NCBI GenBank assembly: GCA_017552965.1
Contig: JAFZNQ010000045.1
Span: forward strand, 1 to 40,748
DNA length: 40,748 nt
Direction of reading: 5' to 3'
Source of the DNA: Abditibacteriota bacterium
GTDB taxonomy: Bacteria > Armatimonadota > UBA5829
The notes beneath the pieces are model-generated. The model worked only from the letters and a program-made list of their open reading frames with translations. It ran no database searches and had not been told where the DNA came from. Both the position numbers and the translations under genes were made by a program. Position 1 is the stretch's first letter. Each line of letters starts with the position of its first letter. Positions 14,179 to 25,237 of this stretch are shown here, in pieces.

Positions 14179-14245
14179 GTCATCCCGTCCCCAAGCCCGC
14201 AGGGCTTGGGGACGGGATCCCCTTCGATAGGAACGCGAGCCAAGG
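14179..14245 (+). repeat. GC-rich palindrome module with GTCATCCC anchor, copy 1
   Basis: A perfect 17-bp stem (14182-14198 with 14202-14218) around GCA, core CCCCAAGCCC/GGGCTTGGGG, followed by a tail GGATCCCCTTC...GCGAGCC. It is homologous to the modules at 22078-22170 and 24118-24210. There the stem has GGCCCC/GGGGCC where this copy has GTCCCC/GGGGAC, a paired change that keeps the helix. Confidence 0.75.
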
Positions 14246-22077: not shown

Positions 22078-22170
22078 TGTCATCCCGGCCCCAAGCCCTG
22101 CGGGCTTGGGGCCGGAACCCCCTTCAACAGAGCCGCGAGCCCCGGCAACGGCCAAGCCCAACAGGACAAA
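22078..22170 (+). repeat. GC-rich palindrome module, copy 2; 93-bp direct repeat
   Basis: Anchor GTCATCCC, a 14-bp stem CCGGCCCCAAGCCC-TGC-GGGCTTGGGGCCGG (22085-22115), then the tail ending AACAGGACAAA. It matches 24118-24210 with three mismatches over 93 bases. The two copies bracket the EVE/TM2 patch. Confidence 0.85.
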
Positions 22171-23169: not shown

Positions 23170-23925
23170 ATGGCCGTATTACGCTGTCCGAATTGCCACC
23201 ATCAGATCGCTTACAACGCCAAAAGATGTTATCACTGCGGATTGGAATATACTTCAACCATGCACTTCATTGCTCTCGATAACATGTCTAAGGAGATCGC
23301 TGAGGAGCGTGCGCAAGCACTTGAATTCCGAAAAGAAAACCCATTTATTATAGACGAAGAAGGTATCTTAAAGAAATACATAGGATTAGACAAAGATGTA
23401 AAGATCCCGGACGGGGTAACGCAAATCGGTGAGTATGCGTTTGAGGAATGCAGCATCAATACTGTAATCATCCCCGATAGTGTGACCGCAATAGATCGCT
23501 GTGCTTTTAAAAACTGTAAATCTTTGACCAAGGTCACCATCCCCAAAAGTGTGACCGCAATAGGATTCTGGGCTTTTGAAAACTGTAAATCTTTGACCAA
23601 GGTCACCATCCCCTGCAGGGAGAACGAAATTGATCACCATGCATTTGTAGGCTGTTATCATCTGACCGAGCTCACCATCCATGGGAACAAGATAGATCTT
23701 GAGAAAAATGATCCATTTCGAATCTCAGAACTCGACACACTAAGTCTTTTTCTGTTTTGTCTATTTTTTGGTTTTCTTGGAGTACATAAGTTTGTTGAAG
23801 GCAAAACCGGCATGGGGATTTTATATGCTTGTACCGCCGGCTTATTTTATATAGGGTGGCTCGCAGATCTTGTTGGTTACATAGTTCTATTATCTAAGGG
23901 GGTGAAGTGGGTTATTCCAAAATGA
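23170..23925 (+). CDS. Zinc-ribbon / leucine-rich repeat / TM2-domain membrane protein
   Basis: A 251-residue protein starting two bases after the EVE-like frame, behind GGGAGAT. Residues 6-23 form a zinc ribbon (CPNC...CYHC; Cys6, 9, 20, 23). Residues about 60-180 are BspA-like LRR_5 repeats (IPDGVTQIGEYAFEECS, IPDSVTAIDRCAFKNCKSLTKV, IPKSVTAIGFWAFENCKSLTKV). Residues about 190-250 are a TM2 domain with two helices (LFLFCLFFGFLGVHKFVEGK, GLFYIGWLADLVGYIVLL). Repeats and ribbon would face the cytosol. Such parts are known singly; the full role is unknown. Lower GC than its neighbours suggests transfer. Confidence 0.8.
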   Translation: MAVLRCPNCHHQIAYNAKRCYHCGLEYTSTMHFIALDNMSKEIAEERAQALEFRKENPFIIDEEGILKKYIGLDKDVKIPDGVTQIGEYAFEECSINTVIIPDSVTAIDRCAFKNCKSLTKVTIPKSVTAIGFWAFENCKSLTKVTIPCRENEIDHHAFVGCYHLTELTIHGNKIDLEKNDPFRISELDTLSLFLFCLFFGFLGVHKFVEGKTGMGILYACTAGLFYIGWLADLVGYIVLLSKGVKWVIPK

Positions 23926-24117: not shown

Positions 24118-24210
24118 TGTCATCCCGGCCCCAAGCCCTGCGGGCTTGGGGCCGGAACCCCCTTCAATGGAACCGCGAGCCCCGGCAACGGCCAAGCCCA
24201 ACAGGACAAA
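24118..24210 (+). repeat. GC-rich palindrome module, copy 3; 93-bp direct repeat
   Basis: Same as 22078-22170 apart from three bases; stem 24125-24138 with 24142-24155. It ends 27 bases before the first TCTTTACTT repeat of the Fic promoter. Confidence 0.85.
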
Positions 24211-24236
24211 TCCCAAGTGGTTCCTGGGCTCTTGGA

Positions 24237-24309
24237 TCTTTACTTTTCCCGTTGATCCTGCCGAAAATGTCTTTACTTTTTCCTGTCGGGGGCGTATAAT
24301 AAGTAAAGA
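24237..24309 (+). promoter_or_regulatory. Fic promoter with three TCTTTACTT operator-like repeats
   Basis: TTTACT (24272-24277), 17 bases, TATAAT (24295-24300). TCTTTACTT occurs at 24237-24245 and 24270-24278 and inverted at 24301-24309, so copies overlap the -35 box and the start region, spaced 33 and 31 bases (about three helical turns). The gene product has an HTH domain, so self-regulation is likely. Confidence 0.6.
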
Positions 24310-24325
24310 AAAGCGAGGGCTTGAT

Positions 24326-25237
24326 ATGATTTCCTACAAAGGGCTGGAAGCCAAACTGAAGGAACGGGGCATCACGCGCTCCCATCTGACAAAAGAACCG
24401 GGTATATCCTCCCGGACGATCGCCAGGATCGGCCGCGGGGAAAAGCTGTCCAGGGCGGTGATGGAGAAGCTGTGCGCCTACTTTGCCTGTGAAGCCGGCG
24501 ACCTGTGCCGCCGGGTGTCGGACAATCCGATCCTGCAGACTCTCCGCGATGAAAAGGAGGCGGGGATCTCCGGCGGGCTGTACCATGAGCTGCAGGTGCG
24601 CATGACCTACAACTCGAACCACATCGAGGGCAGCCGGCTGACGGAGCGGCAGACTCGCCTGATATTTGAGACGCGCACCCTCGACACGTCGGGCGGAGTG
24701 CCGGTGGACGATATTCTGGAAACGGTGCACCACTTCCGCGCCGTTGACTACGTGATCGACTGTGCGGAAGACGAGCTGACCGAAGAGATCATCAGGACGC
24801 TGCACGGGATCCTTTTGCGCGACACGAAGGACGCCTCTCTCGACTGGTTTGCGGTGGGGGATTATAAACGGCGGCCCAACGTAGTGGGCGGGCTTGAAAC
24901 GGTGAAGCCGAAGGACGTTCCCGCCCGGATGAAAGCCCTGCTGGACGTTTACAACGCGAGGCCCGAGGTCACGATCCACGACGTCATCGCTTTCCATGCG
25001 GAGTTCGAGAAGATCCACCCATTTCAGGACGGCAACGGCAGAGTGGGCCGGCTCATTGCGCTGAAGGAATGCCTGCGGCACGGCATCGTCCCCTTTCTCA
25101 TTGAGGACAGCAAGAAGGCCTATTACTACCGCGGACTGTCCGAATGGGACCGGGAAAAGGGCTGGCTCACGGACACCTGCCTCGACGGGCAGGACACGTT
25201 CAAAAAGCTGTTGGCCATGTTTGCCGCGGACGACTGA
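24326..25237 (+). CDS. HTH-Fic protein (predicted AMP transferase)
   Basis: A 303-residue protein. The ATG at 24326 lies six bases after GAGGG and 26 after the TATAAT box, so longer in-frame starts are rejected. Residues 1-65 form a Cro/CI-type helix-turn-helix (GITRSHLTKEPGISSRTIARIG). Residues about 85-270 form the Fic domain: the inhibitory motif S97-N-H-I-E101-G102 and the complete catalytic loop HPFQDGNGRVGR (His231 to Arg242). Fic enzymes move AMP (or other phosphate-containing groups) onto hydroxyl side chains of target proteins; the intact (S/T)xxxE(G/N) suggests the enzyme is normally held inactive. No separate antitoxin gene lies next to it. Probable self-regulated stress or defence protein; target unknown. 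Confidence 0.88.
   Translation: MISYKGLEAKLKERGITRSHLTKEPGISSRTIARIGRGEKLSRAVMEKLCAYFACEAGDLCRRVSDNPILQTLRDEKEAGISGGLYHELQVRMTYNSNHIEGSRLTERQTRLIFETRTLDTSGGVPVDDILETVHHFRAVDYVIDCAEDELTEEIIRTLHGILLRDTKDASLDWFAVGDYKRRPNVVGGLETVKPKDVPARMKALLDVYNARPEVTIHDVIAFHAEFEKIHPFQDGNGRVGRLIALKECLRHGIVPFLIEDSKKAYYYRGLSEWDREKGWLTDTCLDGQDTFKKLLAMFAADD

Follow-up and report, generated by a model that had tools for sequence, protein, structure and literature searches.

Does an enzyme of the Fic family that carries its own DNA-binding domain control the promoter from which it is expressed? The question is raised by a stand-alone gene (24326–25237, plus strand; all coordinates refer to the window, that is, the whole stretch of 40,748 nucleotides that was analyzed) whose inferred product of 303 amino acids yields an AlphaFold2 model with a mean pLDDT of 90.9. 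As proposed in the first-pass annotation of this DNA, the protein joins a helix-turn-helix (HTH) domain to a Fic domain in one chain, with Pfam matches to HTH_26 at residues 9–64 and to Fic at residues 151–246 (E 3.5e-18 for the latter). The N-terminal HTH domain (24326–24517, plus strand) is of the Cro/C1 type, and its most conserved part is the recognition helix, SSRTIARI (residues 28–35; 24407–24430, plus strand), where entropy among orthologues is 0.27 bits, as against 1.49 bits elsewhere in the HTH and 0.74 bits in the Fic domain. The remainder of the chain exhibits the features of a class II Fic (Fido) AMPylase: a catalytic motif, HPFQDGNGRVGR (residues 231–242; 25016–25051, plus strand), which fits HPFx[D/E]GN[G/K]R; an N-terminal inhibitory motif of the form [S/T]xxxE[G/N], here SNHIEG (S/TxxxEG, as in class II Fic proteins; residues 97–102; 24614–24631, plus strand); and the Fic fold (TM score of 0.91 against 4x2d for the AlphaFold2 model, by target length). 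Orthologues that carry the repeats described below retain the strict Fic motif in 85 of 87 cases and the inhibitory S/TxxxEG motif in all 87. HTH-Fic is thus a putative class II AMPylase, predicted to be self-inhibited and potentially toxic. The profile for the PADLOC candidate system PDC-S04 matches residues 68–300 (E 8.4e-99) and leaves the HTH outside; a role in defense is a candidate function suggested by this match, and we treat it only as a lead. No separate antitoxin or repressor gene of the FicTA or Phd-Doc type was found beside fic, and no gene family occurred in more than five of 87 neighborhoods.

Upstream of the gene lie three copies of the sequence TCTTTACTT, two direct and one inverted, with start-to-start distances of 33 and 31 bp, exactly as had been claimed. 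Copy 1 (24237–24245, plus strand) is an upstream accessory site, 33 bp or 3.1 helical turns from copy 2 (24270–24278, plus strand). Copy 3 (24301–24309, minus strand), which reads AAGTAAAGA on the plus strand, follows 31 bp after copy 2. The direct repeat formed by copies 1 and 2 can be extended to 14 nucleotides (93% identical), and copies 2 and 3 form an inverted pair that can be extended to arms of 12 nucleotides (92%), the left arm at 24270–24281 and the right arm at 24298–24309. These are the only exact occurrences of TCTTTACTT on either strand of the 40.7-kb window, in which 0.11 would be expected, and three exact copies were reached in none of 100 dinucleotide shuffles of the window. 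A promoter scan identified a −35 hexamer, TTTACT (24272–24277, plus strand), and, after a spacer of 17 bp, a −10 hexamer, TATAAT (24295–24300, plus strand), together matching the consensus at 10 of 12 positions and representing the sole promoter-like site of the region. The −35 hexamer is contained within copy 2, its bases fitting the operator sequence rather than the TTGACA consensus, and the −10 hexamer abuts copy 3, so that the earlier placement of one copy on the −35 box and another beside the −10 box holds. Transcription would start near 24307, as judged from the position of these hexamers, putting copy 3 at about −7 to +2. By eye, a ribosome-binding site, GAGGG, is located at 24315–24319 (plus strand).

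The first-pass annotation had called for a search for the motif upstream of orthologues. We carried out this search on a first set of 87 loci, subsequently enlarged with more genomes to 120 distinct proteins, and found that the repeats are conserved, so that lack of conservation in orthologous promoters, named in that annotation as an outcome that would refute the idea, did not occur. The core inverted pair (copies 2 and 3) was present at all of the first 87 loci with a spacing of 30–32 bp. At 79 of these loci it departed from the motif at no more than one of its 18 positions, a level of agreement seen in none of 8,700 block-shuffled upstream regions (spacings of 28–33 bp allowed). Among the 120 distinct orthologues the pair was recovered with up to two mismatches in 116 and up to three in 119, its arms being 30 bp (31 loci), 31 bp (77 loci), or 32 bp (11 loci) apart; ties for the closest spacing were resolved toward 31 bp, and where the chosen sites had one mismatch at most, the runner-up was clearly inferior at nearly every locus. 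The one exception (L265) has kept copy 3 alone and has lost copies 1 and 2. Its Fic motif is also altered (DGNGRVSR), and joint decay of operator and enzyme is possible at this locus. Between orthologues, the sites are 91% identical and the intervening DNA is 51% identical. The consensus half-site is A-Y-CTTTACTT-W-T-T, its initial base, T or C, is the same in copies 2 and 3 at 69 of 76 loci, and almost every orthologue whose pair has a 31-bp spacing retains TAnAAT.

A further claim was that the copies lie on the same or nearly the same face of the DNA. The evidence for this comes chiefly from copy 1. For copies 2 and 3, the 30- to 32-bp spacing cannot be told apart from the effect of the 16- to 18-bp promoter spacer and so says little about a protein ruler, whereas copy 1 is free of that constraint. 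With up to one mismatch, copy 1 was identified in 91 of 119 orthologues, being missing in about a quarter. Its distance from copy 2 was 20–23 bp at 26 loci, 30–33 bp at 64, and 42 bp at one (L308), and none of the 91 loci had it at 24–29 or 34–41 bp. With 10.5 bp to the turn, the mean distances of 21.7 and 31.6 bp correspond to 2.07 and 3.01 turns, respectively, and 42 bp corresponds to 4.0 turns. Thus, the upstream site sits two, three, or four turns away and never between, which supports the claim. On the tree of the orthologues the switch between two turns and three turns occurred only two to four times, and the exact spacing changed at least 20 times, in each case staying within about 1–2 bp of a whole turn. 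Because the turn class switched so seldom, the evidence for phasing consists of a few large steps together with many 1-bp steps within a class.

On the basis of position, conservation, and phasing, we consider it very probable that the repeats are a dedicated predicted operator at which HTH-Fic represses its own promoter by binding cooperatively. A dimer or higher oligomer of HTH-Fic, joined through the Fic domains, would place one HTH domain on copy 2 and one on copy 3, which lie on the same face at a distance of about three turns, and would thereby keep RNA polymerase off the promoter. One point against this reading is that copies 1 and 2 run in the same direction, and a rigid two-fold dimer would not bind them as a pair. 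Protein bound at copy 1 would contribute extra cooperative contacts that work only on the same face, and this requirement would account for the placement of copy 1 at two, three, or four whole turns. Operators of the lambda type likewise combine Cro/C1-type HTH proteins, multiple sites, and cooperativity restricted to whole-turn spacings; they differ in that the half-sites here are about 31 bp apart and do not form a compact palindrome. The purpose of such negative feedback would be to limit a class II AMPylase, self-inhibited and potentially toxic, to a low and steady level.

We infer that the effect is repression because the sites overlap the −35 box, the −10 box, and the start site and because there is a precedent in CccR of Yersinia pseudotuberculosis, in which Fic and an HTH are likewise combined in one protein that represses its own gene and requires dimerization (PMC9755527). 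Could HTH-Fic instead be an activator, or a two-way switch in which copy 1 recruits RNA polymerase and copies 2 and 3 block it, so that output depends on dose? An upstream site that is in phase occupies a classic position for an activator, and TTTACT is a weak −35 hexamer. The two best conserved copies, however, lie on the −35 box and over −10/+1, which is where a repressor would bind, whereas about a quarter of the loci do without copy 1, and the closest studied case, CccR, is a repressor. We therefore regard activation as unlikely.

Which protein reads the operator? The gene is found in diverse settings. The genome from which the window derives contains a paralogue (contig C108) that is 70% identical and is also preceded by three sites at 33 and 31 bp, with different DNA between them. 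A phage genome (PV036423) encodes a protein that is 70% identical as well, and there the CCTTTACTT sites are spaced by 22 and 31 bp. A search of 300 other genomes around the window's own, two of its genus included, yielded no orthologue of comparable identity. A scan of bacterial genomes recovered 80 full-length orthologues, mostly in Clostridia-like bacteria and Negativicutes of the gut and rumen, with further ones in viral contigs. Many of these come from metagenome-assembled genomes, and some of the genomes are titled as other phyla, for which mix-ups in assembly are possible. Given the presence of orthologues in varied bacterial genomes and in viral contigs, the gene evidently moves between hosts and phages.

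The operator moves with it. In whole-genome searches of 21 hosts, the exact inverted pair was confined to fic promoters in the 19 that had an exact match, occurring twice in the window's genome (once for each paralogue) and once in each of the other matching genomes. No exact pair was found away from fic promoters in the 21 genomes, nor was there any in a control with the reversed pattern. A regulon of other genes is accordingly rejected for the genomes checked. Matches to the bare pair in viral contigs, most of them probably due to chance in a collection of that size, were left out of this comparison. Two further single matches to TCTTTACTTTT in the window's genome (contigs C3 and C40), of which one overlaps a reading-frame start, are not part of a pair. 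Nor is there a conserved neighboring gene (at most five of 87 loci share one, and these are related phages), and there is therefore no other candidate regulator.

The operator also varies with the DNA-binding domain. Of 13 further homologues whose recognition helix is of the SSRT class, all but one carry the core pair (12 of 13). Homologues with a MerR-like HTH lack it (0 of 22) and have instead, in 21 of 22 cases, an inverted TTGCCGATAA pair whose members are mostly 45–48 bp apart. This family, in which the MerR-like HTH is N-terminal (L012, L102–L118, and L275–L283), thus appears to have an operator of its own, TATCGGCAA ... TTGCCGATAA, one arm of which stands directly before the −10 box. 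Among HTH_26-Fic homologues with the helix ATxAKLS (ATxAKLSKN in L269–L271, L273, L274, and L101), neither the core pair nor the TTGCCGATAA pair was found (0 of 6); TTTAC-like words occur close to their promoters, with no clear shared operator. As judged from these comparisons, the type of operator changes with the type of HTH that is fused to Fic. At a finer level, residue 19, which stands before helix 2 of the HTH, varies with the first base of the operator: Ser was accompanied by T in 36 of 36 cases (and never by C), and C was accompanied by Thr in 45 of 45. When the HTH was left out of the tree, the association was matched by 10 of 12 independent pairs and contradicted by none, with the proviso that residue 19 was picked by ranking all 299 positions and that the best tree is weakly supported; only two or three of the pairs fall on well-supported branches (p 0.25–0.5). 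We regard a match between residue 19 and the first operator base as a lead.

These findings bear on the idea that the repeats are bound by a different regulator of the host, one that controls fic together with other genes. Promoter geometry alone could set the spacing between copies 2 and 3, but the pair is restricted to fic promoters in the genomes checked, varies with the HTH type fused to Fic, and accompanies the gene across unrelated hosts and phages with no conserved neighbor, and we judge a host regulator to be very improbable. Weakest of all, with next to no likelihood, is the notion that the repeats reflect chance or recent common ancestry without function, which short words in an A+T-rich promoter might invite but which conservation rules out, given the excess of copies in the window, the failure of every one of the shuffled regions to reproduce the pair, and spacers that have diverged to 51% identity. 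The proposal that the enzyme represses its own promoter can accordingly be divided in two. Comparison gives strong support to control of the gene by its own HTH, the repeats being conserved, exclusive to the gene in the genomes checked, and variable with HTH type; that the bound protein acts as a repressor is probable.

How does HTH-Fic compare with known systems? Kinch et al. 2009 (PMC2686095) suggested in general terms that expression of Fic may be under the control of HTH domains fused to it, and in the open-access literature that we searched there was one proven case of autoregulation by an HTH fused to Fic, namely CccR. This protein, a T6SS effector, binds a single inverted pair, AGATAATCAT-N26-ATGATAATCT, near its own −35 and −10 boxes, and the HTH domains of its dimer are about 70 Å apart (PMC9755527). 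Both proteins combine an HTH and Fic in a single chain, and both have widely spaced inverted repeats over their own −35 and −10 boxes. In CccR, however, the HTH is C-terminal, whereas that of the window's protein is N-terminal and of the Cro/C1 type; the pair in the window's family is CTTTACTT-N21–23-AAGTAAAG, with a spacer in the window of 22 bp rather than 26; and the family adds a third, phased site upstream. Phd-Doc and FicTA similarly couple a Fido-fold toxin to feedback from a DNA-binding partner, but in those systems a separate antitoxin does the DNA binding or the inhibiting, whereas here repressor (a predicted role), inhibitor, and enzyme form one chain. The closest solved Fic domain, by sequence and by fold, is that of Fic 0569 from C. 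difficile (PDB 4x2c/d/e), whose deposited chains of 235 residues match the Fic part of the window's protein (from residue 67) and leave the HTH outside.

The first-pass annotation had also raised the possibility of a link between AMPylation and transcription. Operator binding could be coupled to AMPylation, by analogy with CbFic2 of Coxiella burnetii, a Fic protein with an inhibitory glutamate and a C-terminal winged HTH, in which DNA binding changes enzyme activity and appears to be independent of sequence (PMC10628234). CbFic2 resembles HTH-Fic in its domains and inhibitory glutamate and differs in the position and winged form of its HTH and in that it is not known to regulate its own expression. 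Somewhat speculatively, and with a good deal of doubt, the operator might work in two directions, with occupancy of the phased sites assembling an HTH-Fic oligomer in which AMPylation is shut off or gives way to de-AMPylation. If so, the promoter DNA would be at once the target of the repressor and an allosteric antitoxin, and loss or dilution of the operator would free both expression and activity. A large gut and rumen family that displays an operator, helical phasing, and co-change with the DNA-binding domain, together with a parallel family in which another HTH displays another operator, offers ready material for testing in what way DNA is recognized by a Fic oligomer and whether AMPylation is controlled by promoter binding.

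Finally, we note some features of the surrounding DNA. The product of the upstream neighbor of the gene (23170–23925) combines, by eye, leucine-rich-like repeats with an N-terminus like a zinc ribbon and a hydrophobic C-terminus similar to that of TM2 proteins. The window also contains, at 24121–24214, 22081–22170, and 14185–14218, an interspersed repeat that is rich in G+C and includes the hairpin GCCCCAAGCCCTGCGGGCTTGGGGC; this repeat has 46 matches in the window's genome. One copy stops 22 bp upstream of operator copy 1, and partial copies lie on either side of the paralogue on contig C108 (197–247 and 1743–1792).
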